Shown here one piece after another: positions 2,349 through 35,927 of a stretch of 64,000 nt of DNA; position 1 is the stretch's first letter, and each line of letters starts with the position of its first letter. The notes beneath the pieces are model-generated. The model searched no databases, was not told the origin of the DNA, and saw nothing but the letters and a program-made list of their open reading frames with translations. The position numbers were made by a program, and so were the translations under genes. This stretch comes from Malania oleifera (Eukaryota > Streptophyta > Magnoliopsida > Santalales > Ximeniaceae), in the NCBI RefSeq assembly GCF_029873635.1, contig NC_080421.1, positions 3,038,001 to 3,102,000 of the forward strand, given 5' to 3'.

Positions 2349-3315
2349 TGTAACTACCTAAATCCCAGTGGGGTACGAGGGTGCACCTTTTCATCTCAAA
2401 ATTTAAAACAAACAACAGAAACACAATAAACCTCAAATAGCATACCAGAGTACTAAAATCATAACCATTATTACATAGGTACTTTCCCAAAAACAATATT
2501 ACATCCCAAGGTACACAAAAGCATAACTAGTCAAGTTTCATATAAACACTCACCCTAACAATACTATTTACACCCCGCTCTAAAACTCTTAAGTTTGATT
2601 CCCTGTTTACCCTTAAATGTGAAATAATTATTGGGGTGAGACACTTCTTAATAAAACGGAATAAATTATTATTAGTGTGTGGCTAATATGAGTTTTAGTG
2701 TAAGCAAAACACATTCATTAATTTAACTTTAACTGAAAATGACGTTTATAAACTGTGCTCACACTAGTATAGTTGAAAATATATATTTACCCTAGGTTTA
2801 TAACATTCGGCTCAATAATAGCCCATATATATATATATATATATAAATCTACAATTATGTCTAAAAGAACCTCCCTGATTGGACTATCATCATGTATAAT
2901 CCCCATGATCGGGTTGTGCAGTCTGAATAATGAACTTAACCTTGACTAGCCTACCACCAAGTTAAGTCAAAGTAATTCGTCTACAAGTTTGATTTGCTTA
3001 CCGCAACCTGGTCCGGGCTCTAGGAGGGTACAACAACTCTTTGTGGTCAAATCGATTTTTCCATGGCCTACACTTCCACAACAGTGTGGCTGCACTGACT
3101 TTCTCACTAGCTACAGTACCGAACTTTCCACTGGTCCATTAAGGTTCTTATAACATAAAATGCAATTTACATAAATTAAAAAAATACATGATCATAATTC
3201 TCATCACATAATTCACAATCATCCCTCCCCATCGTTCTCAACAATAAATTTCTCAACCATCACGCGATCATTAAGTATATCACTATAAAATTCACAATCT
3301 CTGCCTTATTCCTAG
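2349..3315 (-). mobile_element. Partial gypsy-type LTR, reverse orientation
   Basis: Read on the minus strand, the fragment has the shared LTR blocks: a decayed copy of the closing-box hairpin near 2634, and a hairpin ATCATG/CATGAT at 2889-2909 with CCAAGTTAAG-type sequence beside it. Its minus-strand 3' end is followed by a PBS. The U3 half is missing because the forward LTR starting at 3316 interrupts it. Confidence 0.6.
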
Positions 3316-3430
3316 TGTAGTAACCCAAACAAAAAAAAATCTTGGAGGAGATATTTTTATATATTTATATATAAATATCTTGAAGGAGATATTTTTAGAT
3401 TACTTAAGGGCTAAGTTATGTTTATTATAT

Positions 3431-3432
<2 letters not shown>

Positions 3433-3474
<42 letters not shown>
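3433..3474. repeat. (CT)n microsatellite
   Basis: An uninterrupted CT run in the LTR leader, where related LTRs have shorter pyrimidine tracts downstream of a TATA box. Confidence 0.95.
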
Positions 3475-3475
<1 letters not shown>

Positions 3476-4784
3476 AGATATCGGGTAGCTCGTTGCCCGA
3501 ATTAACAATCCAACATTACAACATGGATCAGCAAGTGAATCTCTACAAGTCCAATGAAGTAGAATCTGGATTTGAGGATTTCCGGGCTTTTACCCCAAAG
3601 TTGAGGTAAGGGTCGAAATGAGCCTAGTGACTTGTATATCTATACTAAATAAAGTGATATTAACTTATGGTCTTTCGGTTTTAGGATTTGGGAATCCATG
3701 TGGCTGTTTCAAGCCATTTGGAATCGTGATTCAGTATTCAGGAACAGGTAAGGGGATTTGTGTAACGACCTGCATATTTTCCACATAAATTTTTTTTTTC
3801 TATTAATAAATATCAACATTACACATCTCATATTCCACATTCCAGTTCAGCAGGTCACAATCCACCTGGCCCCGTGGGTACCAAGGATTTATCAGAACAT
3901 ACAACACAAGCCTACGTAACAGAAAGTATAAAATCATATACATCTCATCATAATGTGCATAACACATACCAGAGTACTACAATCACTATCTCTCCGTATA
4001 TACATCCCAAAAATGGAATCTAGGGACAATTCCCACAAAAACTTAACTGTCCCTATAAAAAACGTACCCTTCGCAGAGGGCAGAAAAACAACACTAATTC
4101 TGCGGGGCTTTTCCCGCTCTCCTATTCGGGGCTCCTAAAAAGTTAATAAGATTTAGGGGTGAGACACCTCTCAGTAAGGGAAATAAACTAATACTAGTGT
4201 GTGGCAACATGAGTATTTCGTGTTCAACATATATCATATAACACATTTAGTACTGTTTCATCAAATCTGGGAAAACATATATATATATAAATCAACATGG
4301 CAGAACATACTGCATTTTCATGACATATCTCATCTCATATCATAATAATAATAACATAAAAAAATCATGATAGGTTAGTTGGTTGTTGTCATGTATTACC
4401 CCCACATGACTGGATTGTGTGGCCCGAAGGCGAGACCTGACAATGGTTGGCCAACCACTACCAAGTCAATAGTCTAGTCTGTAGGTCCAATGGGTCTACC
4501 TAGACTGGTCCGTACACTAGGGGCGATAACAACACACTTTTTGAACATAACCACATCGACCATCCAATCTCACACCACTCCGTACAGTGGCGTTAACATA
4601 GATATCATGATCACGAGGACCATGGACACATAGCAACGGTACCGTGCAAGTGCTAGCCTAAACCAAGCTGACCAGATTCTGATATCATATACATATACTA
4701 AAATCGTGATACATAGATATCTCATATCATTCATTTTCACATCAATCATATCATTTCACACATATACGTGTATCATGAAAATCA

Positions 4785-4958
4785 TCGGCCCGTATGCCGG
4801 TATTACACATTTTATCATAGCACGGCCCGTACGCTGGCAATCCACATAGCACGGCCCGTACGCTGGCAATCCACATAGCACGGCCCGTACGCTGACAAAT
4901 CACATAGCACAGCCCGTACGTTGGCAAACCACATAGCACGGCCCGTACGCCGACAAAT

Positions 4959-4960
<2 letters not shown>
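4785..4960. repeat. Minisatellite of about 30 bp containing GGCCCGTACG
   Basis: About six imperfect units, consensus close to CGGCCCGTACGCTGGCAAAT followed by CACATAGCA. The same satellite is in the related LTRs at 18770-19050 and 33655-33850. The reading frames across it only reflect its period. Confidence 0.9.

Positions 4961-5006
<46 letters not shown>
4959..5006. repeat. Compound (CA)n(TA)n microsatellite
   Basis: A CA run passing directly into a TA run, next to the minisatellite inside the reverse solo LTR. Confidence 0.9.
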
Positions 5007-5010
<4 letters not shown>

Positions 5011-5814
5011 TCAGCCCGTATACCGATTTTCCATCATAAAAATCCATATCATCCACATTCCCAGAAAAACAGCATTTCACAACATTTTTACTTATGCCAC
5101 ACAGTAGATTTTCCACATATTCAACATACGATCATTTTCACAGTATTTTGCAAATATAAAACATATATATTTATAAACATATACATTTTCCATAAATCAA
5201 ATGATAAATATATATATATATATATACATATATATATAAGCATTTTCCAAAACAGTACTAGCTTAGTTTATTTCCTTACCTGATTCCTGCAAAGCCCCTA
5301 ATAAAACTGCCCCGCACCTGCAAGGTTCCTAACTCAACACCTTGAAAATGAAATTTACTAGAACTAAAGTTCAGTATTTTCATACGTACAACATTTTCTA
5401 TAACTATCACTAAGTCAAATTAGGCTTAAAAGCCTTACCTCAACTTAGGGAGGATTCTCAACGTTCCCAATCAACACCCCTGGAAACGAAAACTCCCAGT
5501 ATTAAACTTTAATATTTTAACGCGTACAACACTTCTTTCAACTGTCACAAATCCAAAAATTAAGTAAAAAGCCTTACTCTGGGTTTGGAATGGAATCCAA
5601 CTTCGTTTCCCTAACGATCCACCCCGGCAGACTTGTAGAGAACTCCGTCAAGATCGTTGTGATAGCTTCGGATCGTTGATCTGACGACTGGTGGGGCCGA
5701 AAACGAAAAGAGAAGGGAGAGAGAGTCGTAGAGAGAGAGAGAGAGAGAGAGAGGTTTCTTAAAATGAAATAATTCCCGGATTTTCGTATATATATATAAA
5801 ACAGGGGATTTCAT

Positions 5815-6045
5815 CGATGAGCCCGTTCTTCGTCGACGAGTCCTTCACAAATTTCATCAACGAGACCTTGTATTCATCGATGAAATTCAGGCTGCCTCAA
5901 AACCCCTCTCGGTATTTTCCCGCCAACGAAGCCCTGTGTTCGTCGACGAAATCTTTAAAGCCTTCGTCGACGAATCCCCTATATTCGTCGACGAGGCCCT
6001 GCTGAGCCCCTTTCCTTTAGTCCTTCGCGTTCGTCGACGAAGTCG
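5815..6045 (-). promoter_or_regulatory. Array of TCGTCGACGA palindromes in U3
   Basis: At least five CGTCGACGA cores plus variants such as ATCGATGA and ATCAACGA, spaced about 20-40 bases, lie upstream (minus strand) of the LTR's TATA-like region. The core is its own reverse complement and is CpG-rich in AT-rich surroundings. A promoter or enhancer role is inferred from position. Confidence 0.55.
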
Positions 6046-6519
6046 ACGGCCTCCTTTTGTTTCCGGTTTCCATATCCCTTTTCTTTTATTATTTAACTAT
6101 CATTTTATTCGGGTCATTACAATTTGTTTATATTAGTTATTTTTAAAATATGATCTGGTTGAACTGTAGGTTATGTTTATACGGATGTTTTGGTTACCTG
6201 TTTAGAAAATTTCACCGAGTGAGATTGCCGATTTTTCGGGTGTGCGGTTTTCGTGAAAATTAGGGCTTTGGGTGTCATCTTTGTTTTTTTTTTGGAAAAT
6301 CATTTATTTGAATAAAACTAAAGTATAAAGATGATCGTACCTTTATTTTATGTTAAACTGTATTTTCGGATCAATTATCATACGATTGTTTAATTATCCA
6401 AATAGGTGTGGCATGAGAGGATATTTTGTGATGGTTGAGATGAGATGTGTTTGAAATGAAATAAAGGAGCTGGAGTTCCAAACTGTTTTCAGGAATGGTG
6501 GTTACTAACATGCCAGTTT

Positions 6520-6850
6520 CATTACGTAGGGTCAATGATGACATGCCAGTTCGATTTGGTGGGGTCTAGACATTCCAGATTAATACTGTGGGGTCTAAGA
6601 CATGTTGGGTTAATACCGATGGTCGTAAATTGCCAGTTTATGCCGAAGAGTGTGAAAACACTAGATTTGTGCTAGTTCAATACCGACATGCCGGTTTGCC
6701 GAATTATGGTTACTAAAACGTCGGTTCAATGCCGTGGGGTCAATAATGACATGCCGATTTGCTGGATAATATCGAGGGTTGTGGAATACCGGTTCAATAG
6801 CATGGGTCAATAATGACATGCTGGTTTGCCGGATTATATCGATAATTGTG
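6520..6850. repeat. Degenerate tandem repeat containing GACATGCCRGTT
   Basis: Variants of GGGTCAATAATGACATGCC and of a TTTGCCGGATTATATCGA-like half recur about five times at 60-70 base spacing. It fills the slot that other LTRs here fill with a different minisatellite. Confidence 0.7.
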
Positions 6851-7636
6851 AAATATACTGGAACTGTTTGTGAAAATATTGGAAATGCTAAATGCTTTGT
6901 TTCTTATTGGAATAACACTCATGTGCCCACACACTGATATAACCTAATTCTCCCTTACTGAGAAGTGTCTCACCCCAATCATACAAATTTGTTTCAGGTC
7001 CTTCAGGTAGCCGGACCTAGCATTCTAGAGGGTTATGGAGGGTAGTATTCTGTTAATTTTTGTAAGTACTGTTGTGAGTACTAAACTGTAGCCAGGATGT
7101 CATTTTGAATTATTTTGGATACCTTGGGTTGATGTTTTGTATTATGACAGACTTAGTACTCTGGTATGAATGAATGTAATAGGTTGAAATATGTTCCACT
7201 GCGTTATTCATGTGAATAGTGGTTATGAGTAGGGTATCCGTGAGCCCTATCGGGTTGGACCCTTATATTTATTGGTATCATGGATGTTTGTATGATACAG
7301 ATACTGGTTAGGTTCTCAGATCACACCCTAGGGCGTGATAGCTCAGTATCTGAGCTAACCAGATTGTTAGGTTTTGTAGACTTGGTTAGGCTAGATTAGG
7401 TGAACATACCAGAGTATAGGAATGTGAGGAATGGGCAGATTGAGATATGGGTAGAATAGGTCGAGGGTTTTCTTGTAGTTAGACAAGGATTCATTGACGG
7501 TGTTATGTGTTTTTCATAAAATGACAATTTCAGTAAAACCATGACAAACCATTGATAGTTTTGTGTCGGTGCGGTGAGGCAGACCTGGACCCTAGAGTTT
7601 AGATGTTAACATGATTATTTACAAGGATTGTGTTAA

Positions 7637-8640
7637 TTGTGTTATGACATAGGAATACTAATCTATTATTATCCTGTTTTCGGAATAGAGCCCAAGGATA
7701 ACAACTTGGACGGTAGCTCGGAGGGGACTTCGAGCGATGGGTCTCCTGCCATGCCTCGAGGCTTGACTGAGCAGGTCTTGCGGGAGATTGGGCAGAGTGT
7801 TAGGGGATGGGAACGTCCACCTACTACTTCGGGTTGCACTATCAAGAAATTTACCCACATGCATTCTCTGACGTTCACTAAAGGATCTGACCCAATAGTG
7901 GCCGAGAACTAAGTAGAGAAGACGGAGAAGATTCTGAAAGTTTTGCACTGCACAGACGAATAGAGGGTTCTCAATGCTACATTTCTACTAGCAAGTGAAG
8001 TTGAGAGATGGTGGACGCCTATGAGTCTACTAGAGGAGCAGAGGACCGGGCCTTCAAATATGACATAAAGCCGTTTCAAGGAGGTATTTTTCAAGCGATA
8101 CTTCTTGGTTTCCACTCGAGATGTGAAAGCAAATGAGTTCTCAAGTCTGACCCAAGGAACCTTGACAGTGCAGAGATATGCGGCCAGGTGCATCGAGCTA
8201 TCTCATTTTGCTCTATTCTTGATATCGAATGAGTTTGAGAAGACTCGGAGGTTCGAGAAGGGTCTGAGGAAGGATATCCGTAAGCAGGTGGCAATCGTAT
8301 AGATTCGGGAATTCATTGTACTAGTGGATAAAGCCACTGTGGCTGAAGCTAGTCTTCAAGAGGAAGTGGCAGTCCAGGATCAGAAGAAGAGGCCAATGCC
8401 TTCTAGTTCTCAGACTGGTGCTTATTAGGGGCAGTGGAAGAAGAATAACTACAGTGCTAGTAAATGGCAGGAGGTGGAACCACGAGGTCCACATTGGGAT
8501 TCATTTGGAGCACGGTGTTTCGGGTGCCATAGGTGGCATGAGGGTGAGTGCTAGTCGTTCACGGGTAACTGTCACTGTTGCGGCGAATAGGGCCACGTGG
8601 CATGAGTCTGTTGTGTGTCGATGAGTGCTACACCTGCACT
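7637..8640 (+). pseudogene. Gypsy gag remnant of the outer element
   Basis: Translated pieces resemble plant chromovirus-type Gag capsid: FTHMHSLTF, EVERWW, RFKEVFFKRYF, EFSSLTQGTLTVQRYAAR and FEKGLRKDIRKQV in the usual order. A zinc knuckle CFGCHRWHEGEC follows at about 8520-8553, then a decayed second one. Stops interrupt it at 7910, 7961, 8066, 8300 and several times after 8425, so it cannot make intact capsid. It lies between the decayed PBS near 7267 and the protease. The family is Ty3/gypsy (Metaviridae); the Tekay/Del-like assignment is inferred. Confidence 0.8.
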
Positions 8641-8664
8641 AAATCAATATGGGGGAGGTAACTA

Positions 8665-9027
8665 GTGCCCTGGAGAAGTTTGCAGAGAAACATGACTCAA
8701 GCGAGAGTTTACTCACTTACCCCTACCGATGCGGAGAACGCGGGCGATGTGGTGACAAGTACCATGTTATTGCTTTCAAATAAAGTCATTGTCTTATTTG
8801 ATTATGGAGCAACCCACTCCTTTATATCTGCAAATTTAATGAAATTGTGTGGGGTTGAAACCCAAGTGATGGATGCGAAATTGTCTGTGACGACACCATC
8901 GGGGAGTATGGTGATATGTAGGAAGAAGTTGGGGGATTATCCTATAGAAATTCAGGGAAGGACGCTACCGGTGAATCTAGTGGTATTCAAAATGTACGGG
9001 TTTGATGTTATTCTAGGGATGGACTAG
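8665..9027 (+). pseudogene. Gypsy aspartic protease remnant
   Basis: A 120-codon open stretch includes LFDYGATHSFISANL, which matches the plant gypsy protease active-site block. The usual D-S-G triad reads D-Y-G, so Ser is replaced. The downstream flap GFDVILGMD is intact and is followed at once by a stop. It sits in the expected Gag-PR-RT order. The active-site change and stop imply a dead enzyme. Confidence 0.8.
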
Positions 9028-9269
9028 TTATCCTCCAGTTTTGTTGTCAACGACTGTAATCGGAAAAAGGTAGTGTTCAGACCTCCGGATGGACAGGAGT
9101 ATAAGTTCGTGGGATCGTGCGTGCGCTCGGCGCCACAGATTCTATCGTCAATGCAGGTAAAAAGGTTACTCTTGGATGGATGTCAAGGGTACCTAGCATG
9201 TGTAAAGGAGCCACCGCGGGATGGGTTAAAGCTCTAGGATATCCGAGTGGTTAATGAATTCCCAGATGT

Positions 9270-9722
9270 ATTCCCTAGAAGACTTACCTAGTTTACCTGC
9301 TGATCGTGTGGTGGAGTTCACTATTGAATTGCTACTAGGAAAGGTATCGATTTCTAGAGCTCCATACCGGGTGGATCCAACATAACTTTAAAATTTGAAT
9401 GAGCAGTTGCAGGAACTACTGGATAAAGGCTTTATCAGACCCAGTGTTTCGCCTTGGGGAGCTCTAGTGTTGTTCGTGAAAAAAAAAAATGGTTCAATGA
9501 GGATATGCATTGACTACCGTGAGATTAACAAGGTAACAATTAAGAACATATATATGTTGCCTCGTATAGATGATCTATTTAACCAACTGCAGGGAACGCA
9601 TGTCTTCTCTAAGATCGATCTACGGTCAGGGTATTATCAGGTGAAGGTTAAGTCCGAGGATGTGGTAAAGACTACTTTTCGAACTAGGTATGGCCACTAC
9701 AAGTTTCTAATCATGTCATTCG
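9270..9722 (+). pseudogene. Gypsy reverse transcriptase N-terminal part, interrupted
   Basis: An open stretch at 9395-9722 has the plant gypsy RT fingers/palm signatures in order: [48 protein letters not shown] and [17 protein letters not shown]. The coding match stops at 9722, where an LTR begins, so the catalytic YVDD part is absent. Upstream 9270-9394 is frame-broken. No continuation of this RT was found on the far side of the nest. Confidence 0.85.
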
Positions 9723-10020
9723 TGGAACGACCCAGGAAATTTTAACTATTTAAAATAATAAAGAAAGAAAATAAAAGGTAAAGGGGGAAATAGAAGAAAT
9801 GGAAAAGAAATTTTAAATGGTAATAAGCAAGCGCTCGTCGACGAACTTGATTTTCTTGTCGATGAGCAATATTTTAAGCCTCGTCGCCGAGTATGCATGT
9901 CTCATCGATGAGGACTTATCGATAGAGGTTTTCATATTTCTGAATTTCGTCGACAAGCTCCCGGATTCATCCATGAATGGTATTCTTGGGCTCGTCGGCG
10001 AGGCCGTGGGGCAAGTTGCT

Positions 10021-10029
10021 TATAAATAG
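10021..10029 (+). promoter_or_regulatory. LTR TATA box TATAAATAG
   Basis: It lies 20-190 bases downstream of the palindrome motifs and just upstream of a pyrimidine-rich leader, the layout repeated in the other LTRs. Confidence 0.6.
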
Positions 10030-10536
10030 GAAAAAATCAAAATTTTAGCGAGGAATACATTTCTCTTCTGTCTCTCTCTTTAAAATTTGTCCCCTCTACC
10101 TTCTCTCTACGATTTCAAGCCTATTTCTCCTTAGTTCGACGATCAGAAGCTACCACGTTGATCCTGGAGAGTTTCTCTACAACTTAACCATAACAAAATT
10201 TCAGTTTGAGGAGTTTGAGAATCATTCCGAAATCAGGGTAAGTATGATATTTTAAGTTATATTGTTAATATGGAATGTATAGGGTTTAGGGAGTGATAAC
10301 ATAACATTTTGTTGAAATTTGGGTTGATAAGCTCGGGTTTTTTGAATTAGGGTCCTGGTGAGTACCGTCGGCGTCATTTTGGGGTTTTCGCAGGCATAGT
10401 TTAGAAGAAAAGGTAAGGGGAAATTTATTATAGTAGGATTTTTATTAAAGTTTAAACTGGTTACTTTGAGAATATAAAAGATATATATTTAAGTATGATT
10501 TGTTTGAACAGCTGAACATTTAGGAAAATATTAACT

Positions 10537-10573
<37 letters not shown>

Positions 10574-11205: not shown

Positions 11206-11997
11206 TATATGGAATGTGATATGATGAGATACTTTCTGTCAAGAGCTTGCTGAGAAAGGCGAGTGCCCTGGTATTTTCAGTTGATGCTAGAACAGAGGGA
11301 AGCTACTTGTATGAGTGAGTAATCTTCCTTATTCTTAGAGACTTTGTCTATATACATAGCCCAAGGGCTTACCGAGTAAGGTGAGTGCCCTAATACTGGT
11401 ATTAGAGCAGAGGGGAGCTACTTGTATGGGCGGGTAGTCTTCCCTATTCTCAGGTAATATTATTAAAAATAGTTATGAATATGAGAATGAAATCAGAAAC
11501 CAATATTTATGCATATTAGATATGAGTATGAAATCAGAGGCCAATATTGATATTATTGATGTGTTTCTTAGCTACGGTTGATGGTGAATGGCAAACAAAT
11601 ATATATTTTGTAATATTTAAACACTCTACCGCACACGCTGCTATGATTTCTTCTTCCTTATTGAGATGTGTCTCATCTTAGTGGATGATTATATTTTCAG
11701 GTCCATTAGGAGGTCGTGTTTAGGACTCGGGCAGGGTAAAGTTTTGAGTATTTTGGAGAGTCTATATAAACAAGTTATGTAAGTTTATGTTTTTTTTTTT
11801 TAAATACCAGTATGTAATATAAGCGAATGGTGATGAATGTTTATAGGGTATATATATGTATATAGGTTGACTCTGGTATTTGAATTTGAGGTTATATGTT
11901 TTAATTCCGCTGCATAATTGTGGTGTATGGTATCAGAAGCAGGTGTATGTGACACGTGACCCCTGGACCCCACTTGGTAGGTATAGAGCGTTACAAT

Positions 11998-15500: not shown

Positions 15501-16435
15501 GTTAATGTAGGATTCAGAAAATGTTATTATTTGATTTATGATAAACAGTATATGTTTATGTTCTATATGTTATCAGAACCCGGATGTTAGTTTAGTTCAG
15601 TTTCAGGAGCACGGTACCATAGTTTATAGATCAGATACCTATGTTCAGATTGGTGCTAACCACCCCACGAGGGGGTGGGGGATGGATAGTCGATGTGGCT
15701 TCTAGTGTAGAGTTGTAAACATCCACCTAGCAGTCCAGACCAGGGTGTGGCGAGCCTATCATACTTACAAACATTTTTAACTTGGCAGTGGTCGGCCAGC
15801 CATTGTCGGGTCCCACCTTCGGGCTGCACAACCCGTCATGGGGGGTAATACATGACAACAACTAGCTATTCGTGCAGGGTAGTTTTCAGTATTATAGATT
15901 ATATCAGATAATACATGATTAGTCTGATTACTTGGAAGTATGAAATTATGTGTTTATCTAACCTTATCATAATTTATGTTTTATGGTATGTGAAATGTAA
16001 GGTATATGTATTACAACATTAAATATTCATATTTTCACACAACTGATTTTAATTTATCTACCCTTACAGAGAGGTGTCTCACCTTAAGTTTAAAATTATT
16101 TCAGGAAACCCAGAGAGACCGGCGGGTTAGGGCGGCCGCTAAGTGAGTTGAGCTTCCCTGCTAGAAGGGTAAGTTTTGATATAGGATCAGAAGATTTTTT
16201 TTATAAGATCCTAAGTTTATTTTGATGTTTTGGAGATTGTATATAAATACAGTATCTTTGGGAATATAGTAGACTCTGATATTATGTGATTTATGGTTAA
16301 TGAATGTGATTTACATTTATTGCTGCCTAGGTTCCGCTGTGTATGACAGGTGTCCCCGATACCCATGGGTTCAGGTTGACTTTGTTATTAATTATGTTTT
16401 ATTATATGAATATTTAAGTAAGTCGTTACATTACA

Positions 16436-19050: not shown

Positions 19051-19474
19051 TCATGATATACGTGTATGTGCAAATTGATATGATTGGTTTGGTAATTAAT
19101 GATATGAGATATTTATGTATCACGGTTTTGGTATATGTATATGATATCAGAACCTGGTTGGCTTGGTTTAGGCTAGCACTTGCACGGTACCGTTGCTATG
19201 TGTCCATGGTCTTCGTGATCATGATATTTGTGTTAACGCCGCTGTACGGAGTGGTGTGAGATTGGATGGTCGATGTGGTTATTTTCAAGAAGTGTGCTGT
19301 TATCGCCCCTGGTGTACGGACCAGGTCTGGCAGACTCATCGGACCTACAGACTAGACTATTGACTTGGTAATGGTCGGCCAACCATTGTCAGGTCCCGCC
19401 TTCGAGCCACACAACCCAGTCATGTGGGGGTAATACATGACAACAGTCAGCTAACCTACCAGGAATGTTTTATG

Positions 19475-19516: not shown

Positions 19517-20101
19517 GAGATGAAATATGATTATGAAAATGCAGTATGTTCTGCCATATTTTGATGATATATGTATGTTTTCCCAGATTTGATAAACAGT
19601 TACTGAGTATGTTATGTACAATATATGTAGAACATAGAATACTCATGTTGTCACACACTGGTATTAGTTTATTTCCCTTACTGAGAGGTGTCTCACCCCT
19701 TAATCTTACAAATTTTTAAGGAACCCCTGATAGGAGAGCGTGAAAAGCCCCGCTGATATAAAGTTGTTTATTTGCCCTCTACGAAGGGTAAGTTTTTGTA
19801 GGGACAGTTAGGTTTTTGTGGGGATTGTCCCTAGATGTGATTTTTGAGATGTATATAGGAGATACAGTGATTATAGTAACTCTGGTGTTGTAATGCATGT
19901 TGTGATGAGTTGTATATGGTTATATGCTTTCTACTGCTTAGGCTTCTGCTATATATATATATATAAATACTCTGATATATCCCTGGTACCCACCGGTCCA
20001 GGTGGATTGTGACCTGCTGAGCTGGAATGTGTGATGTGTGGTATTGATTGATGTTGATATTTTTTTTAAAAAAAATATGAAAAAATAAGCAGGTCGTGAC
20101 A

Positions 20102-20306: not shown

Positions 20307-22295
20307 TATAATGACTTGCTTAGTTTATCATATAATAATACAAATTGAATAAATAAGTCAACCCGAACCCGACGATAGGACACCTCTGACATTCACAGCG
20401 GAAACCTAAGCAATTGTAAATATAAATCACATTTTCATAACCATAAAATACAAATATCAGAGTCAACTACATTCCCAAATATTTGTGTTTATGTACAATC
20501 TCCAAACATACAACATACATATAAACATATCTAGGAACCCACAATACACATCTACTGTCCCAATATCAAAACTTACCCTCCTAGGGGAGAGTAGTACTAC
20601 TAACTCAGCGACGGCCTCGACCCGCCGGTTCTTATAGGTTTCCTGAAAATTATTTAAGTTCAGGGTGAGATACCTCTCAGTAAAGGAAAATAAAATAAAT
20701 ACAATTGTGTGACAATATGAACATTTAATGCAATTATTCATATACAGTACATTTCATATACTTGAAACATTCATCATAACATACTAAATAATCATATACT
20801 TTCGTATTTTCTATAAATCATATAGTTCATAAAATGTCTGGTATAACTGATAATACTGAAAACATACCCAGGATGAATAGCTAGCTGATGTCAAGTATTA
20901 CCCCCCATGACGGGTTGTGTAGCCCGAAAGCGGGACCCAACAATGGTTGGTCAACCACTGCCGAGTCAAAAATGTCTGTAAGTACGATGGGCCTGCCACA
21001 CCTTGGTCCGGACTGCCAAGTAGATGTTTACAACTCTACACTGAAAGCCACATCGACTATCCATCTCCCACCCCCTCATGGGGGGGGGGCAGTTAGCACA
21101 AATCTGAACATAGGTATCTAATCTATATAGCTACGGTACCGTGCTTTTGAAACTGAACTAAACTAACATCCGGGTTATGATAACATATAATACATGACAC
21201 TATAACGTTTAACATAAATGGATTGATAGCACTTTTTATAATTTCATAAATACGGTCTCACGCCGAACATTTTATAAATACGACATCGCGCCAAACATTT
21301 CATAAATACAGCCTTGCGCCGAAATCATACGTAAAACACGACCTTGCGCCAAATATCTTATACATATCATTCTAAATAAATAAATCAATTATCATATATT
21401 TTCAAAATCATAATGTACTATATTATTTCATAATTCCTGAAAAACATGTTTTACTCGTAAAATTGCCATGATATAATACTTATCACGCACAATACTGAGT
21501 AAAATCATACATTTCATTCTAAAATTACATTTCCTGTATAGCAATAGTATTTTCCCCAAATATGCATTTTCTCAATAATATTCAAATATAACACATGCTT
21601 TTATGAAAATTAATTTGCTGATAAATAATATTAATTTGCGTGGAAAAATAAATGCTTTAGTTTATTCCTTTACCTGGTACTAAAAAGAAACCCCCTAATT
21701 TCACTCGTCTTGCACCCGCAAGGTTCCCCGTTCAACACCCTAAATTCAACAACTCCTAGAACTAAATTTCAGTATTTTCACGTGAATATCATTTCCTATA
21801 ACTATGAAAAGACCAAATTCTGAATATTTAGCCTTATCTCGAATTAGGGATGAATTTTGAACTAGCCCCACCGACGATCCACTTTGGCAGATATGCATAG
21901 AACTTCCCTAGGAGTGTCGTGGTGACTTCTAATCGTCGAACTAGCATAAATCCAACCTAGAAACTTAAAGAGAAGGAGGAGAAACCGAAGGGAGGAGAAA
22001 GAGAGTGAATTTCCTGATTTCTTTGCGTTTAAATCCGAGTTTTAGGCTATTTATAGAGCTGGATTTGTCGACGAGACATGTCACTTCGTCGATGAGTCCC
22101 TAAAGAGTTTTGTTGAAGAACGTTCACCTTTCGTCGACGAAATTCATAATTGCCAAAATTCTCCTTGGTATTTTCTCGTTGACGAGCCCAATTGCCGCGT
22201 CGTCGACGAACGAAGTCTGCTATGCCCTTTTTTCTATTCCCATTTTTTCCTATCTTAGTTATTATTTAAATACCATTATACTTTGGGTCATTACA
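20307..22295 (-). mobile_element. Solo LTR, reverse, TSD CACAC/CATAC
   Basis: Plus-strand ends TATAATGACTT and GGGTCATTACA, flanked by CACAC (20302-20306) and CATAC (22296-22300), one difference. On the minus strand: palindromes (22215 to 22070), TATA as CTATTTATA at 22048-22056, open leader block with GATAAGG in place of the donor (about 21840), minisatellite (21250-21360), hairpin with one mismatch (20888-20909), TGAGA-TACC-TCTCA (20666-20679). Same subfamily as 14418-16430. Confidence 0.88.
22048..22056 (-). promoter_or_regulatory. LTR TATA box (TATAAATAG on the minus strand)
   Basis: CTATTTATA on the plus strand, just downstream (minus sense) of the palindrome motifs at 22070-22215. Confidence 0.6.
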
Positions 22296-23201: not shown

Positions 23202-25794
23202 TGTAATAACCCGAGAAAAAAAAATTAATTAATAAATTAAAATTATTAATCAATTAATTAGTTAAACATTATTAAATTAATGTATTAAATAAACAAATAC
23301 AAAGAAATAATATGGAAAAAATTAAGACTAATTATTAATTAATTAAACATTATTGAATTAATTAATTTAATAAATAAATAAAAAGGAATAGTTAAAAAAA
23401 TGAAATAAAGATATATAAATATATATATAAGGTTATTATATAATATAAGTTAAAGTAAATATATATATATATAGAATATTAAAATAATATATATTAAATG
23501 TAATAAGATAGATTGGATTTCAATGTGAAATCCAATTCCATCATCATCTTCTTCTTCTTCTTCAGCGTCAATCTCTCTCTCTCTCTCTGTAATTCTTTCA
23601 CGTCCCCGCACCTCTCCGTCTCTACCTCTCTCTCTCCCTTCATTTTTCGACGGATATTCGACCGATCGGGAAATGGAAGGTGTCGTTGGATTCCTAACTC
23701 CGCCACCAACATTTCTACTGGAGCAAATTTATTGTGGGAGCGGCGTAGGCACCATTCCTAAGGTAAGACAGTTTTTCCCTAATTTCTCAATTTCTTATTA
23801 AATTTGTTATTAAATCGACAATCAGACACCACCATGGGGTCTTAGTCGTGATCGTCGTCATTTTAGCATAGGTAATTTTTCAATTGGGATTTTTTAGGCC
23901 CTACTCCAAAGCGAGAGTGAGATTTGAGAAATTTGATAATTTGACTATATTTAAGGGTATATCTATTTATTTAGAATTTATGGGTTTAAAAAAATATTTT
24001 ATTTAGGATTAATTACATAGAACTAGGATTTTTGATTCAGGGTCTGGGTGAGCGCTGCAGGTATTTTTCGGGATCCCTGGTGGCGTAGTTTAAGAAACCA
24101 GGTAAGTAGAAATTATATATTAAATCAGATTTTATGAAATTAAAAGTAATAATTTATGTTATATTATATGTATGTTTTGGTGTGAATTATTAAAATGCCA
24201 ACTATGTAAAATTATGATTTTTGAACTTAAGACCACTTATTTAGTTATGTATTTGTGGAAATGAACTGAAGAAAGTGGAAGGAATTTTTTGGATAATTAT
24301 GTAAAAAATGGAAATTATATTTTCAATAATTAAATGTTAAATGTGCGTTGACCTATTTTATAGGAATATGTATGAATTTTACTGTTAAATTGTGTGACAT
24401 GAGATTCTGTGCAAATATATGTTAAAGGTATGAGATGTAGGTTAAGTAAGTAATGCATTGAAAATAAAATATGATATGAACTATGTTGTTTGTGTGTGTC
24501 AACCATGTAAACAGCTGAAAGATGTTGGGTAAAATAGTTGAAAGATGCTAGATAAATGTATGACAGCTGAAAGATGCTGGGTAAAATAGTTGAAAGATGC
24601 TGGATAAATGTATGACAGCTGAAAAATATTGGGTAAAACAGCTGAAAGATATTGGGTAAATGTATGACAGCTAAAAAATATTGGGTAAAACTGCTGAAAG
24701 ATGTTGGGTATGAAATGAAATGAAATGAAAATAGAAATGAATGAAATGGAAATGAAATGTGAAATATGAATAATGTAAAATGAGAAAGAGCCACTTAAAG
24801 TGGAATGAAATGCAATGCTTAAGCTATGAACATGAACATATGTGTGTGATTGAATAATGACGGAAAGGAATAAAGTATTATGATATTAGAAGTACCTATG
24901 TACATAGAACATGATATGATTGGGCGGGGCGTACTCTTTGCCTGAGGGCTTGCTGAGAAAGGCGAGTGTACTAGTAGCTTCAGATGTGGCAGTAGCCACA
25001 TAACGCACTATGGCAAAAGGAACCTACTTGTATGGGCGGGTAGATTTCCCTATCCTTAGGGCCTTTGTCGGTAAGTTATTGTTGAACGGTGTGAGTACAA
25101 GATCAATCTAACACTTGAGGGCTTACTGAGTAAGGTGAGTGCCCTGGTATGCTTTAGTAATGACCTTAGGGTTACCTAAATATCAGAGTAGAGGGGTACT
25201 ACTTGTATGGGGGGTAATCACCCCTATTCTTGGGTAATCTCGTGGGTTAAATCTTTGTATGTAATTGATTAGGTTCAAAGAATGATTTCAGTATTATGTT
25301 AATAATTTGCAAATGTTTTTAAAATGATATCTACTTACCTTATGTTAGCTACATGCTGTTTTAATATATTATTTATTCCCTTACTGAGATGTGTCTCACC
25401 CGAATATGAATTTATCTTTTTCAGAATTTCCTCGAGATCGAGTTTTGAGAGCTCGAGGTTTTTATAGCATTATTGAGAAATAAAAAAATAAAAGGGTATA
25501 TTTCTATGTTAATTTTGGGATGTAAATATTTATGTTTCATGTCTTTATGTTTTAAGGTTATTGAGTAAGGAATGATTATGAAAATACTGAAATGTTTTGG
25601 GAGTTATGTAGATTTATGGAAATGCAGGTGATGGATGATTACTATGGATTATAGTTAGGATTAGTAAACTCTGGTATTATGTTATATGGAGATTATGTTT
25701 ATGTTTTTCGCTGCATGTATATTGATTTATGGATTATTAGGGTTTTATCAGGTATAACGCACCAGATTGAGGTTTAAGGGTTCGGGGCGTTACA
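23202..25794 (+). mobile_element. Solo LTR, forward, TSD GTTTG
   Basis: Ends TGTAATAACCCG and GGGGCGTTACA, flanked by GTTTG at 23197-23201 and 25795-25799. The U3 is very AT-rich and has no TCGTCGACGA motifs. A CT leader (23575-23640), exon-like block with AAGGTAAGAC donor (23760), 25-bp minisatellite (24510-24710), duplicated hairpin module (24946-25066 and 25107-25246) and TGAGA-TGTG-TCTCA (25385-25398) follow. Length 2593 bp. Confidence 0.9.
24510..24710. repeat. 25-bp minisatellite AGCTGAAAGATGTTGGGTAA
   Basis: Eight to nine imperfect units alternating GGGTAAAA and GATAAATGTATGAC spacers, inside the forward solo LTR. Confidence 0.9.
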
Positions 25795-27288: not shown

Positions 27289-27334
<46 letters not shown>

Positions 27335-28437: not shown

Positions 28438-28446
28438 TATAAATAG
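28438..28446 (+). promoter_or_regulatory. LTR TATA box TATAAATAG
   Basis: Directly below the palindrome array 28208-28430 and above a CTCTCTCTC leader at 28484. Confidence 0.65.
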
Positions 28447-28884
28447 TTGAAACCTGAATTTTTTTTAATAAAAATTCAACGCAAACTCTCTCTCTCTCTC
28501 TCTAAAATGCTTCTCCCTCCTTCTCTCTTCGATCCTGGCCCCATTTCTGACCAAATTGAAGATCTAAGGCCACCACGACGCTTCTGATAAAGTTCTCTGT
28601 AAGTCTGCCGAAACTGATCGTGGGAGAAGTTGGTTTGGAATTCATCCCAAATCGAGGGTAAGACATTTTATTCATATTATGCCTTCCTCGTAGTTATAAG
28701 AAATGTTGTGGGTAAGAAAATACTGATGTTTTATTATGGGGGATATTGTTTTCAGGGTATTGAGTGGAGAATCCTGCGAGTGTAGGACTAGAGTTCAGTG
28801 AGAAGCTTTTCAGATTTAAGCTAAGAGAAATATGCTATGCTAGGAAATTTACTTACGTTATTAGAAATTATATATATATATATA

Positions 28885-31338
28885 TGTGATGACCCAAAAA
28901 TATATATAATTAAAGTACAATAATAATAAAATAATAAAAATGGTCATTAAGTTAATATTAATACAGAAGTGTTTTTCTGTAGGATCTTTGATTCCATGTT
29001 TGATGCCTAAGAAAGACCTTGTCTTAACGAGTGCTCAGAGACCATTGTGGCTCAGTCGCTCCCTGGAGGTCGGCCTGGTCAAAATGGAATTTCATAAGAT
29101 AAACAGGATAGACACTATTTGTACACGTAAATAAGTATATATACATAAAATAGTGTTTTGACAGACATAATTTGTAAAAATACATACTAAGATGATAATA
29201 ATATAGGTATCATATGTGGGGCCCACAAGACTATGTGAGGTCCACATAAGTCCCGGAGCCACAAGACACTATTTATATACGTAAATAAATGCATAAAATA
29301 ATGTTTTGACTGATATAATTTGTAAAAATATATGATAAAATAATAATAATATAGGTATCCTATGCGGTGCCCACTAGACTGTGTGGGGCCCACATGAGTC
29401 CCGAAGCTGTATGGAGGTTTACACGAGTCTCAAAGTTATGTAGGATGTATAAAATCGTATAAGAGTTATTCGAATTACGTAGGATTCATTCGAGTTTCGA
29501 AGTTGTGTGGAGCTCATAAGACCATGTCGGGCCCACATGAGTTTTCAAAATTTAAATTTAATTTTTTTTCAAAAATAAATAAATACTAAAAATAGTTTAA
29601 AAGTAAAAACAATGATAATAATGATTAAGAAAAATAATAACATAATAAAATAATTAATTAACTAATTGACTAATTAATTAGGTAAGTGATTAATTAAAAA
29701 TTTATTTAATGGGAATAGTGGCAAGCACTCCCACATGGCCTCCATCCCCATCCCATACTCAACCCATACCTTGCCCATTCCTTGCCCATTCTTTAATTTT
29801 AAAAAAATTATGATTTCACCAATCTCCCCACACTTTTATAAATTTCATTTCTTCGCCAAAATTTTCCTATAAATAGGGAGCTCTCAACCTTCATTTTTCA
29901 CAACAATTTTTCAAGGAAGAGAAGGATTAGTGAGTGAAAGAATTTGTGGTGGAGAGAGAATTTTTGAATAAATTCTCAATCACCCACTCTTTCCGATCTC
30001 ATTTCTTAGAGATAGTTACAGTATTCGTAAGGAATAAGGTAAGTAAATTTTGATTATGTTAGTTTTTTTTTTATTTAAAATTCATACCCAAGTTTATTTT
30101 ATAAGTAAATTTCAATTATGTTAATTAGTTTCACAAAATTTCCATAAGTTTATTTTTACGTGTATTTAATTATACCAGTTCTATTTTTAATATACTTGCA
30201 TCTATTTTTGGGTTAAGAAATGTTCTAATCCCCTCGGATAAATTTTCAGCATTTATTTCTATTCAAAAATAAAATTATATATATTTTTAACACAAAAATT
30301 GTGTGGCATGAGTTTATTTTTACGTTACATTTTTATGAAAATATGAGTAAAGATGAGATTTTCACGATATTATTTTAAATTGCATAAATTATAATAAGAT
30401 GATTTTAAAACCCCTTATGGCAACGAAAGTTTAAAGTTACAGATGCTCGGTACCGCAACTTAAAGTTTATACGGATCAAAGTGCACCCACACTATTTACA
30501 GAGTGGTTATTTATGTTAGTGAATTTCTCCTGAGTGCACACCTGGTTCTGGACCAGGACTTAATAAGGAAAATCTCACTTAAAGTTTACGTACGTTGATT
30601 TAATTTGGTCGGCCAGCCAGCTAAGTCCAGTCTTCGGACCGCACAACCCAGTCATGGGGGTAAACATGACTTACGGCAAACAGACCTAAGGGTAGTTTTT
30701 ATAATATATGTTTATACATATTTAATTACATGTATAAAGTTACTGATGATTTGAAGGAAAAGTGTAAGTTTACGTGAAAATGATCATTCTGGTGCTTAAA
30801 TGACTATCTAAGAAAAACGTATAAGGAAAAGTATATGTATGTTTATCATTAAATATTTTTATAGTTTTAAAGTTAAAAGTTTAATTTAACAGTTATAGTA
30901 TATGATTATAAAATATGACAAAAGTTTTATGTAGAAATTTTTAAATTTTCTGAAAGCAGTCTTGAAGTTATATTATTAAATATTATTTTACGAAATTCTT
31001 TAAAAGCTCATTTTGGCCACACACTAATAATAATCTTATTTACTTACTGAGCGTCGTCTCACCTCAATAATATTTTATTTCAGATAACTCTAAAGGACAT
31101 GTCGGAAATCAGGCTTAGCAAGCATGCGAGAGGGGGATTAGAAAAAATAAAGATTAATTAGAAATATTAGTATGGTTTCAAATATTTATGTTTGTGTAAT
31201 TTTTATTCTTTCGAAATAAATGATTGTAATATGGATAATTAGCGCTCTGGTTTAATAAAAATTGAGTTTATTTTGCTTCCACTGTAAATCAATGGTAAAA
31301 AGTTAATATCCCAGGCCCCTCAGGGTTGAGGTGTTACA
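28885..31338 (+). mobile_element. Innermost solo LTR, forward, TSD ATATA
   Basis: Ends TGTGATGACCC and GAGGTGTTACA, flanked by ATATA (28880-28884 and 31339-31343). The duplication is weak evidence alone because the target is TA-rich, but removing the element rejoins its host LTR. It has a 155-bp tandem duplication (29110-29410), TATAAATAG near 29871, GGTAAG donor near 30039, GGTCGGCC block and GTCATG/CATGAC (30651-30670), and TGAGCGTCGTCTCA (31048-31061). Confidence 0.85.
29110..29410. repeat. 155-bp tandem duplication with GGGCCCAC motifs
   Basis: Two units, each with CACTATTT, a long AT-rich section, ATATAGGTATC and GTGGGGCCCAC(A/T). Shorter GGGCCCACATGAGT echoes continue to about 29545. 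Confidence 0.8.
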
Positions 31339-31781
31339 ATATATGTATGTATGTATGCCAGATATTATACAAAATATGAATTTTTAAAGTATGTGTGGCC
31401 TAAGTACATGATATTGATATGAAGTTTTATGCAGTTTTTTTTTTTTTAGTATTTCAAATTATACAAATATATAGTTAGATATTTGCATATTTTATACAGA
31501 CAAAGTATGTATATATATGCAGTTTTATTCAGATGATTACATAGACAGATATATATATAACAGTATACAGATAATTATTCAGAATAATATATACAGTGTA
31601 TATAGAAAGCTATGTTTTCCTAAATGTCAAAACACTTAGATTATACAGATAGTTTATACAGACAGTTTATAAAGACAGATTATACAGTTATAACATCCAG
31701 ATGTTACAGTTATTCCGATATCACGGTATTTATAGTACAAAATTATGGTGTTATGGTTATTTTGGAAACATGATGAAAACA

Positions 31782-31820
<39 letters not shown>
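31782..31820. repeat. (TA)n microsatellite
   Basis: A TA run followed by TATG repeats inside the LTR 28129-32681. Confidence 0.9.
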
Positions 31821-31831
<11 letters not shown>

Positions 31832-32763
31832 TTATATAGTATCACATTCCTGTGGAAAGATTACAAACAGATACAGTTTATAGAGCACGATACCATTGCT
31901 AATATAGATAGAGTGCAACCACATATCTTAGATAGTGTGTGGGTACCGTCAAACTGTGCTCGGAGAGGATGCAGCTCCCCGGTACGCTGGGTTAAGGGGG
32001 CCAGTTTGACGAGGTAGCAGCTAGTCACGAGCTTAGAAGTGGATGCAGTTTAGCCGGGCTGGGGTAGTGTAGAGTATGATGACTTACCTAGAGGGCCGAC
32101 TAGGTTAAGTCCCGCCTATGGGCCGCACAACCTTGTCATGAGGGGTCAAATCATGACATACAGAGTCATAGGGAAAGAGCACAATTATTTATATGTATAC
32201 AGTTTTACAGCTTTTGTCGTATATAGTATGATATAGCAGTATGAATGATAGAAAGTTCAAATGATACAAATGTTTTAAGCTACTATGCATGTGTTTTACA
32301 GATTTGCCAGATCATGTAGTTTTATATATTAATGTTATAGTTTTATGACTCGGTCGCCACACACTAGTAATAGCATATTTCCACTTACTGAGCGTTGTCT
32401 CACCCTATTACTTTACTATTTTTTAAGTGAGCCAGTTAGGCGAGCAGAGCAGACTCACAGATAGAGTGAATACTTTGTTGCCCTAGTCGTAGGGTAAGTT
32501 TTGCAAAAAAATGTATTTTTGAGATATATGATATTGGAGGGAAATGTTTTATGGTTATAGTTTGTATGTACAGAATTTTGGTATTGTATAGTATATGTGG
32601 TTGTATGACTTACATTTCCGCTGTTTAGGTATGGTTATATAGATACAAAAAAAAAAATGGAGAAATTTTAAGGTTGTTGCACGCAGTATTAACCAGAGTT
32701 ATGATTTATGCAAATTTATGATTTTTAAAACTTATACAAAAATAAGAAATTCAGTTCTAGTAA

Positions 32764-34539
32764 TGTAACAACCTGCTCCTTTTTCACATTTTTTTTTATA
32801 TAAATAAATTATCATCACATCATACATACTCAGCAGGTCACAATCCACCTGGGCCCGTGGGTACCAGGGATATAACAAAACATACAGCAGAAGCCTACGC
32901 AGCAGAAAGTATAAAATCATATGCATCTCATCATAATGTGCATAACACATACCAGAGTCACTACAATTACTATCTCACAGTATATACATCTCAAAAATGA
33001 AATCTAGGGACAATCCCCACAAAACCTAATTGTCCCTACCAAAAACTTACCCTTCCAAAGAGGGCAACAACTGATCTAGATCAGCGGGGCTTTTCCCGCT
33101 CTCCTATTAGGGGCTCCTGAAAAATGTATAAGATTTAGGGGTGAGACACCTCTCAGTAAGGGAAATAAACTAATACCAGTGTGTGACAACGTGAGTATTC
33201 TGTGTTTTACATATACCATACATAACATATTCAATACTGTTTATCAAATATGGGAAAACATATGCATATCAAAACATGGCAGAACATACTGCATTGTCAT
33301 AAACATTTCTCATCTCATATCATAATAATAATAACATAAAAACAATCCTAGTAGGTTAGCTGGCTGTTGTCATGTATTACCCCCACATGACTGGGTTGTG
33401 TGGCCCGAAGGCGGGACCTGACAATGGTTGGCCGACTACTACCAAGTCAAACAGTAGTCTATAGGTCCGATGGGTCTACCCAGACTGGTCCGTACACCAG
33501 GGGCGATAACAGCAATAGTACCGTGCAAGTGCTAGCCTAGACCAAGCCAACCAAGTTCTGATATCATATACATATACTAAAACCGTGATACATAAATATC
33601 TCATATCATTTATTTTCATATCAATCATATCATTTCACATATATACGTGTATCATGAAAATCATCGGCCCGTACGCCGGTATTACACATTTTATCATAGT
33701 TCGGCCCGTACGCCGGCAAATCACATAGCACAGCCCGTACGCTGGCAAACCACATAGCACGGCCTGTACGCCGGCAAATCTCATCCACATAGCACGGCCC
33801 ATACGCCGGCAAATCACATATACATATAAAAATATCTCGGCCCGTACGCCAGTTTTCCATCATAGAAATCCATATCGTCCCCATTCCAAAAAAAAAAAAA
33901 ACAGTATTTCACAACATTTTTATACTCATGCCACACTAAACAAATTTTCTACGTATTCAACATATCATTATTTAAACAGTATTTTCCAAATATAAATCAT
34001 ATATATAAATATATTTATTTTTCCTGAAACCAGATGCTACATATATATACATGCATTTTTTCAAAACAAAACTAGCTTAGTTTATCCCCTTACCTAATTC
34101 CTGAAAAGCCCCTAAGAAAATCTTCCCCGTACTCACAAGGTTCTCAACTCAACACCCTGAAAATAAAAATTCGCAGAATTAAAGTTTAGTATTTTCGTAC
34201 GTACAACATTTTCTATAACTACCACTAAGTCAAATTCGACTTAAAAAGTCTTACCTCAATTTAGGGATGATTCCCAACGTTCCCAATCAACACCCTGGAA
34301 CTGAAAAATTCCAGTATTAAAGTTCAGTATTTTTACGCGTATATCACTTTCTTCAACTATCAAAAATCCAAATATTGAATATAAAGCCTTACCTTGGATT
34401 TGGGATGAAATCCAACTTCGTTTCCCTGACGATCCGCTCCGGCAGACTTGTAGAGAACTTCGCCAGGAGCGTTGTGGTGGCTTTGGTTTGTCGATCCGGC
34501 GTAAAACTAGCCCGGAATCGAAGAGAGAGAGAGTCGTAG

Positions 34540-34571
<32 letters not shown>

Positions 34572-34643
34572 TGCACTCACGCACACCAAAAATCCAATTC
34601 AATTTGGATTTTAACTTTCAAAACTTCTTAAAGAAGCTTGTGT

Positions 34644-34679
<36 letters not shown>

Positions 34680-34721
34680 GTAAACCTTAATTAAAGTAAA
34701 GCTTCTTGAAGAAGCTTTCAT

Positions 34722-34760
<39 letters not shown>

Positions 34761-34897
34761 GCTTTAATATTTATATATATATATATTTGTTTCTTATCAT
34801 ACTATTCATTTTACTTGTTAATTTAATTAATTAAATTTATTTTATTATTTTTTTATTATTTTTATTTTTATTTTTTATTTTTTTCCCGGTTACTATA
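32764..34897 (-). mobile_element. Solo LTR, reverse, TSD AGTAA, mosaic structure
   Basis: Plus-strand ends TGTAACAACC and GGTTACTATA (terminal CA mutated to TA), flanked by AGTAA at 32759-32763 and 34898-34902. The part from 32764 to about 34580 matches the 3761-6121 subfamily, including the minisatellite (33655-33850), hairpin (33369-33391) and TGAGA-CACC-TCTCA (33142-33155). The U3 part is AT-rich with AAGCTTCTT motifs, like the LTR at 27158, and lacks TCGTCGACGA arrays. Confidence 0.9.
33655..33850. repeat. Minisatellite of about 30 bp containing GGCCCGTACG
   Basis: About six units of CGGCCCGTACGCCGGCAAAT plus CACATAGCA, the third copy of this satellite in the window. Confidence 0.9.
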
Positions 34898-35927
34898 AGT
34901 AAACCATGATATGCAGATTTAGAACCATAACATACAAATACTTCAGTTTATTCAAATCAATTAATTACAAGGTTATGATTATTTCAGTTAAATAGAATCA
35001 TGGTTAAACAGTAATATAGAAATATCAGTTATATAAATATAAAGAGTATCAGACCCTGATGGACTAGATCAGTTTTTCAGAGCACGGTACCGTTGCTATT
35101 TTAGTTCAAAGTGTAACCACATATCTCAGATAGTATGTGGATTTTTAGTAGTCGATCGTGCCTTTGTTGTGGACAGGCTCTTCATTAGTTAGGGTTGAGG
35201 TGGCCGATCTGACTATTGGAGTTCAGTTGACTTATCCTGGTCGGCCAAACAGCATTAAGTCCCGCCTACGGGTCGCACAACCTTATCACGAGGGGTTGAT
35301 TCATGACTTTCAGTTATCCATCCAGGGAAGTTTTCTCATATATTATTATATAGCTAGATTTACAAAAACCACAGTCATACCTATAGATATTAAAAGTATT
35401 TTGAATAGAATATTCAAGAAAACAGTTTATGTTAAACAACATATGTGTGAATTATATTGTGTTTTATTTATATGTGTTTTCTCAGACTCAGTTGTTTACA
35501 ACATACAGTACTTTTAAATAAGATATTACCATTACGCAAACTCATCTGCCACACACTGGTAATAACATATTTCGTCTTACTGAGAGTTATCTCATCCCAG
35601 TAATTTAACACTTTTTAGGTGATCTAAGTACGCGAGCAGATCAGACATAGAGATAAAGGGGATCTTGTGTCGCTCAGTATGTAGGGTGAGTATTTTGGGA
35701 GAGACATTTTTGAGTGGCCCCTAGGTGATCAAGTGGGGCATTTTGGGTAAGATTTTGTATGTATATTTTGGGAAAGTATTGACATATGGTATTGTATATA
35801 ATGTGGTTATATGCATTTTTGTATTCCGCTGCATAGGTAGAACAAGGATATACAGGTTCCACAATCCCCACTTGGACCGTGATAATGTTATAAATTATAT
35901 TACAGGGTATCAGGGCAGTGAAACTTT

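Follow-up and report, generated by a model that had tools for sequence, protein, structure and literature searches.

Two-hairpin copies at the locus

The stretch analysed here, called the window below, is a 64,000-nucleotide segment of the Malania oleifera genome (C5:3,038,001-3,102,000, in an assembly of 1.494 Gb and 510 contigs) that holds nested, diverged Ty3/gypsy retrotransposon material. Matches to Retrotrans_gag, RVP_2, RVT_1 and SH3_Tf2-1 occur within nested broken elements and are not individually tied to the long terminal repeats (LTRs) of interest. These LTRs share a short hairpin, GTCATG/CATGAC around a G-rich loop (hairpin II), for which a first-pass annotation had listed nine copies and proposed a selected RNA or cruciform structure. 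Directly upstream of it lies a longer helix that had gone unreported (hairpin I). The two are described together as a two-hairpin module, and hairpin I, overlooked in the first pass, is the strongest part of the evidence.

Three copies belong to family A and score highest with a covariance model of the module: 4385..4470 on the reverse strand (hairpin I 4434-4467, hairpin II 4388-4410; 98.8 bits, both hairpins being present in the predicted fold), 19359..19444 on the forward strand (19362-19395 and 19419-19441; 101.1 bits) and 33366..33451 on the reverse strand (33415-33448 and 33369-33391; 99.2 bits, together with alignments, as for the preceding copy). Family B is represented by 15776..15859 on the forward strand (15779-15812 and 15835-15856; 89.3 bits) and by 20887..20970 on the reverse strand (20934-20967 and 20890-20911, the latter with one mismatch; 86 bits). 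The remaining copies lie on the forward strand at 35226..35310 (35229-35261 and 35285-35307, the latter with two mismatches; 79.8 bits), 30594..30673 (30597-30627 and 30651-30670; 79.2 bits) and 32078..32160 (32081-32111 and 32135-32157; 78.3 bits), and on the reverse strand at 2886..2971 (2933-2968 and 2889-2909; 71.5 bits). The 30594..30673 copy sits in an LTR of the type found in a homeodomain-carrying family described below, as judged from an LTR match to genomic stretch L158. Searched with the covariance model, the window yields the same nine copies and no tenth full copy; four extra weak matches (E 0.02-0.35) correspond to hairpin I of these copies read on the opposite strand.

All nine hairpins listed in the first pass (9/9) are present at the places given, except that the copy entered as 20888-20909(-) is off by 2 and truly spans 20890-20911(-). 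The 2889 copy reads ATCATG/CATGAT, with both stem sides changed as described, and the 32135 copy does pair over 7 bp (GTCATGA/TCATGAC), a length that is also reached in the 4388, 19419 and 33369 copies (GTCATGT/ACATGAC). Of the two copies said to have a single mismatch, 20890-20911(-) has one (GTCATG/CTTGAC), whereas the 35285 copy (ATCACG/CATGAC) has two within its 6-bp stem. Across 100 dinucleotide shuffles, perfect GTCATG-n6-13-CATGAC arrangements average 0.03, whereas the window has six, which are homologous copies and so no independent count.

The surrounding LTR is more diverged, as had been noted. When between-family identity is computed in windows of 25 bases, the hairpin has the highest value of all (0.81), the 75 nt preceding it range from 0.58 to 0.75, and most other windows fall between 0.33 and 0.62. 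A second peak of 0.73-0.76 stands 225-274 nt downstream of the hairpin (GCCACACACT...CTTACTGAGNNGTGTCTCACC).

Base pairing in hairpin I and hairpin II

The module is abundant in the genome. With at most three mismatches, the family A hairpin pattern has 15,618 matches (7,872+7,746), against 0+0 for the reversed pattern. At the same tolerance, the CGCCTACGGGTCGCACAACCTNRTCATG pattern has 9,502 matches, an anchor leaving both hairpin II arms free has 26,408 and a 30651-type anchor has 8,705. These counts overlap and are not additive, and the reversed controls gave 0 or 1. Ten further copies were recovered from twenty regularly placed 10-kb stretches on seven chromosomes with a profile built from the 60 nt that precede hairpin II. 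From 46 profile rows, 20 diverse sense copies were used, eight hairpin-fetched copies and 18 antisense or weak rows being omitted; three of the eight later re-entered as family A examples. Together with 110 more short stretches, these three brought the large set to 133 copies, 128 of them distinct. In this set, the search pattern itself fixes the left hairpin II arm of 40 copies (from the CGCCTACGGGTCGCACAACCTNRTCATG list), and the three final stem I bases are fixed in 70 copies (arm-free and 30651-type anchors). In the MAFFT alignment, the GACTA/TAGTC family sits about two columns out of register in stem I, an offset that was left uncorrected and works against pairing. The null model for covariation preserves the tree as well as the number and kind of changes per column, and a second tree was built from the non-stem columns.

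In the 20 copies, RNAalifold places hairpin I immediately before hairpin II, as in GACTTAGC paired with GCTAAGTC, and the helix encloses an inner TGG...CCA helix. A continuous hairpin I of 13-15 bp occurs in the predicted fold of four of five family A/B copies. Among the same 20 copies, 87.9% of the cells at the named pairs are paired, against 24-41% when the partners are slid by 1-3 columns, and cells changed on both sides number 17 against a shuffle mean of 8.3 (reached in 0/500 shuffles). In the 128 distinct copies, the paired fraction is 0.840 against 0.737 under the null (reached in 1/200 simulations, and in 1/200 with the non-stem tree), and there are 107 both-changed cells against 37.8 (0/200, and 6/200 with the non-stem tree). 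The five pairs untouched by the anchors give a paired fraction reached in 8/300 simulations and 89 both-changed cells against 30 (2/300). Hairpin I is also more paired than the null (1/300) in the 19 copies that come from the window and random stretches, but it passes the compensatory-change test only in the larger alignment.

When a Watson-Crick pair is lost, RNA tolerates G.U and not A.C, whereas a DNA dyad treats both alike. On internal branches, which represent lineage history, hairpin I moves from Watson-Crick to G.U 26.9 times against 3.5 times to A.C, the non-stem baseline being 43.5:45.9. Terminal branches, which are assumed to record chiefly the decay of copies after insertion, give 24.1 against 23.0 (baseline 79.7:105.2). 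With the non-stem tree, the G.U:A.C counts are 20.1:3.0 on internal and 31.0:26.0 on terminal branches. Among random sets of eight control column pairs, 0/5,000 reach the observed G.U-A.C difference and 1/4,993 reach the fraction. Individual pairs show the same path in the 128 copies: one reads CG in 69, UG in 33 and UA in 18 with CA in a single copy, another UA in 59, UG in 38 and CG in 12 with CA again in one, the others being unpaired. Moreover, the sense strand of hairpin I is more stable than the antisense strand in 98 of 128 copies and less stable in 28, with mean z-scores of -2.38 and -1.48, respectively. This G.U path is the pattern expected from selection on sense-strand RNA, and in the 128-copy set RNA-level base pairing under selection is found for hairpin I only. 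Of the two forms proposed in the first pass, RNA is supported for hairpin I, and a cruciform or other DNA dyad is disfavoured there but may still apply to hairpin II.

Hairpin II is paired in a fraction of 0.788 against 0.688 under the null (5/200, and 3/200 with the non-stem tree) in the 128 copies. The 88 copies found without the arms give 26/300 for pairing and 59/300 for both-changed cells. An excess of both-changed cells appears only in the 19 window and random-stretch copies (8 against 2.4, 4/300), in which pairing stands at 36/300. The arms themselves are conserved, the three middle pairs being CG in 107, AT in 122 and TA in 117 of 128 copies. Double changes do occur, namely ATCATG/CATGAT (L050), ATCATAA/TTATGAT (L084) and TGCCAT/ATGGCA (L079), but many copies carry the one-sided ATCATG/CATGAC. 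The test set out in the first pass, an excess of compensatory changes in a larger alignment, is therefore passed by the module, if not in every subset, and failed by hairpin II alone. The selected structure proposed there stands mainly through hairpin I, and the compensatory excess it had attached to GTCATG/CATGAC does not appear in the large set.

A third candidate hairpin, over GTCCCGCCTTCGGGC, was rejected. Its paired fraction is also above the null (0.814 against 0.711, 10/200), while its both-changed cells number 19 against 16 and a C.A cell occupies one pair in 66 of 128 copies.

Position in the LTR and proposed role

The four LTRs with both ends placed measure 1,987-2,361 bp, and in five LTRs the distance from hairpin II to the 3' end is 574-660 nt. 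A GCACGGTACC-like block (at most three mismatches) is found 135-250 nt upstream of hairpin II in 9/9 copies, with a TATA-like stretch ahead of it in most of them, as judged by eye. The forward-strand segment 19130..19198 (TATATGTATATGATATCAGAACC ... GCACGGTACC), upstream of hairpin II, is a putative core promoter of this kind. In stretch L158, LTR ends reading ...GTTACA at 2247 and 7630 are followed at 2250 and 7633 by TGGTATCAGAGC, which we take to be a primer-binding site (PBS) of the initiator tRNA-Met type. The Ty3/gypsy arrangement, with an LTR ending in CA and then a PBS of the tRNA-Met type, is thus found in L158, about 690 nt separating the module from the PBS downstream. The likeness to Del/Tekay chromoviruses lies in the Ty3/gypsy proteins of the same window and in this putative tRNA-Met-type PBS; no chromodomain is among the domain matches reported. 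The module LTRs are probably those of Del/Tekay-type Ty3/gypsy retrotransposons, a label given by resemblance and from PMC6377399, in which no Gypsy clade of Malania oleifera is commoner than Del.

The explanation favoured here, with a probability judged a little above even, is that the GTCATG/CATGAC hairpin is part of a cis-acting RNA module of about 85 nt in the LTRs of many Ty3/gypsy families, probably of the Del/Tekay type. The sense transcript would fold hairpin I (8 bp plus the inner helix), and a conserved linker ending CACAACC[C/T] would join it to hairpin II, in which GTCATG/CATGAC would enclose the G-rich loop. The conservation of the module, its place about 570-660 nt before the LTR 3' end (five LTRs) and the sense-strand G.U evolution of hairpin I are demonstrated. 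The module would be placed in the R/U5 leader (repeated and unique 5' regions), downstream of the TATA-like core promoter and upstream of the PBS; lying between the presumed promoter and the PBS, it would therefore be present in the genomic RNA. Most likely, it would either act in leader translation or allow Gag to recognise the genomic RNA for packaging or dimerization, and non-autonomous families sharing the module may use it for mobilisation by other elements. A bolder version is doubtful: the module would be an RNA "passport" crossing LTR families in tens of thousands of copies, kept by G.U-mediated covariation and recognised in trans by Gag of autonomous elements, and it would be exploited by non-autonomous families, one of which would carry and spread an intact WUSCHEL-like homeodomain gene.

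Several observations weigh against the RNA module. A single genome supplied every copy, and for 110 of the 133 the anchors used in their selection lie inside the module. In the 20 copies, hairpin I pairs changed on both sides number 7 against 4.9 (68/500 shuffles as high) and the number of pair types is not above the shuffles (390/500), so that two of five measures are not exceeded. In the 19 window and random-stretch copies, hairpin I has no excess of both-changed cells (6 against 4.4, 82/300), and its internal-branch G.U:A.C count is only 4:0 (p 0.13). An all-pairs G-test for covariation in 69 copies gives no significant column pair; the innermost hairpin II pair comes closest, with E values of 3.2 and 2.0 under two null models. 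For hairpin II in the large set, both-changed cells show no excess (51 against 37.4; 41/200, and 103/200 with the non-stem tree), and a group of copies retains GTCATG/CATGTC with a T.T mismatch. Internal branches of hairpin II lean to A.C (10 against 1.4 for G.U) and its z-score is lower for the antisense (-2.55) than for the sense strand (-1.96), so that the evidence of sense-RNA selection does not extend to hairpin II. Folding energy of the whole module barely beats shuffles, with z-scores from -2.7 to +0.1 in the nine copies and two below -2. Finally, the leader position is one that we infer.

The conserved arms of hairpin II also suit an explanation at the DNA level, unlikely overall, in which hairpin II and the TGG...CCA palindrome of hairpin I would be half-sites for a dimeric protein controlling LTR transcription, like the Sirevirus repeats. 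These arms are conserved in sequence, without G.U preference and without compensatory excess in the large set, and PMC2829016 describes family-specific palindromes upstream of the TATA box in Sirevirus LTRs. However, such dyads leave the strand-specific G.U path of hairpin I unexplained, and the site is single rather than repeated and, by eye, apparently downstream of the TATA-like box. According to the same source, a Sirevirus (Ty1/copia) LTR carries 3-14 palindromic repeated motifs (RM boxes), which almost always have a CGG-CCG core, form CpG islands and lie upstream of TATA. These boxes are the nearest plant case found: a short dyad in a plant LTR, with arms differing together between families and conserved amid diverged sequence. 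The module differs from them in having one copy per LTR, another sequence and an adjoining second hairpin with RNA-type substitutions; the window shows one module per LTR with the core GTCATG/CATGAC, and not several CGG-CCG copies upstream of TATA.

A role in 3'-end formation is rather improbable; the module would then be an R-region hairpin positioning or exposing the poly(A) signal. The R region must contain the RNA 3' end, which speaks for such a role. Long retroviral R regions, in which conservation is linked to stem-loops (PMC3601003), point the same way, but the second conserved block about 230 nt downstream is equally a candidate. Very improbable is the absence of any structural selection, shared family ancestry and conservation for another reason imitating pairing: the all-pairs test without a passing column pair and the covariation inside the null, of hairpin II and of hairpin I in the 19-copy subset, are in its favour, whereas the set-level tests of hairpin I in the large set and the contrast between internal and terminal branches contradict it. 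Hardly any weight falls on an H-type pseudoknot, in which CAACCY would pair with the G-rich loop in addition to the GTCATG/CATGAC stem. The two segments show conservation and, by eye, complementarity in many copies (AACCY with GGGTT), but copies with a GGGGAAG loop retain CAACCC, so that A-U pairs are lost with the partner unchanged (also by eye).

For the favoured RNA module, the nearest functional analogue would be the structured 5' leader of Ty1 RNA, which, like that of retroviruses, serves packaging and dimerization and has hairpins in LTR-retroelement RNA (e.g. PMC5454406). The module differs in being LTR-encoded and about 690 nt upstream of the PBS in L158, and its function is a proposed one. 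Retrozymes, plant LTR elements with hammerhead ribozymes (PMC4918200), likewise encode a functional RNA structure in an LTR, whereas the Rfam searches gave no ribozyme family. The window has 0 matches to Rfam 15 at the gathering score. When E values up to 5 are allowed, the 30-36 kb part gives four microRNA-family matches (E 0.8-3.7) and one to Phage_DGR at 35177-35273 (E 3.4), all far below gathering. The Phage_DGR match, with 20.2 bits where gathering requires 50, overlaps the 35226 copy in its hairpin I. In viral contigs, CTTACTGAGNNNNGTCTCACC has 0 matches, and GCACAACCCNGTCATG matches in 19 stretches are attributed to chance, none having CATGAC within the next 40 nt. No RNA element or hairpin conserved among plant Ty3/gypsy LTRs came up in a literature search with most subscription papers beyond its scope.

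To our knowledge, packaging and leader signals of plant Ty3/gypsy elements are largely unmapped. A compact, alignable module offers a defined target for probing and for tracing families that share a mobilisation signal, and the comparison of lineage branches with dead copies can serve as an internal control when RNA structure is sought in repeats. Length variation of plant Ty3/gypsy LTRs prevented one LTR-modelling study from building a model for them (PMC3601003).

Neighbouring features and a homeodomain-carrying family

The second conserved LTR block, about 230 nt downstream of hairpin II, was located by pattern scan at 19650..19697 on the forward strand (GTCACACACTGGTATTA...CTTACTGAGAGGTGTCTCACC), and its CTTACTGAG part recurs at 2635, 4158, 16063, 20664, 31043, 32384, 33140 and 35576. 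The CTTACTGAGNNNNNTCTCACC block, with its own small dyad TGAGA/TCTCA, is present in 13 window copies (15 pattern matches, two judged to be chance) at 2635, 4158, 6954, 11657, 16063, 19677, 20664, 25380, 31043, 32384, 33140, 35576 and 36164. By eye, a 3'-splice-site-like TTTTTCAGG often comes next, with a 5'-splice-site-like GGGTAAGTTTT after it. Other G-rich-loop hairpins occur in a second LTR group that has the same downstream block, at 11228-11450 and 25000-25240 in the window and in stretches L029, L041 and L046. These are mostly two tandem copies with a nearly constant loop, CTACTTGTATGGGYGGGTA (15 matches), and with stems that read, by eye, GGGAAA/TTTCC, GGGGTG/CACCC, GGGGT/ACCCC and GGGAAG/CTTCC.

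In stretch L158:1-9000, elements with the module and an LTR of the 30651 type are arrayed in tandem, with a period of about 5,383 bp and 99.8% identity over 3.6 kb; a third anchor match lies 5,379 bp further. The internal region contains an intact open reading frame (ORF) of 236 codons (L158:4141-4848, forward strand) encoding a homeodomain (Pfam E 1.1e-8), the best solved relative being WUSCHEL (E 6.9e-11). Neither of the two forward-strand ORFs of at least 100 codons in L158 matches gag or pol in Pfam, and the element therefore looks non-autonomous. The homeodomain ORF is in frame in 5/5 elements read with a second LTR nearby (L158, L159, L160, L161 and L162). Eight further loci were read at the equivalent offset. 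Four of them have another anchor match at a distance of 5.2-5.7 kb, and in these the ORF is present in frame with the same stop and 92-99% identity (4/4); the other four, which have no such match among the 100 listed, do not carry it. Its ratio of nonsynonymous to synonymous differences (pN/pS) is 0.16-0.79 in ten non-independent pairs. The only database relative found is an uncharacterized Malania oleifera protein (69% over 66%), and the literature search made for such homeodomain capture by an LTR element brought up no report of it.

Near the end of the window, a weak reverse transcriptase fragment at 56511-56981, perhaps of a long interspersed nuclear element, scores 27 bits, under the Pfam cut-off of 29.6. 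A Ty1/copia element is probably present in the segment 56511-63774, with an extended open stretch and matches to gag_pre-integrs, Pol_BBD, rve and SH3_retrovirus (61916-63145).

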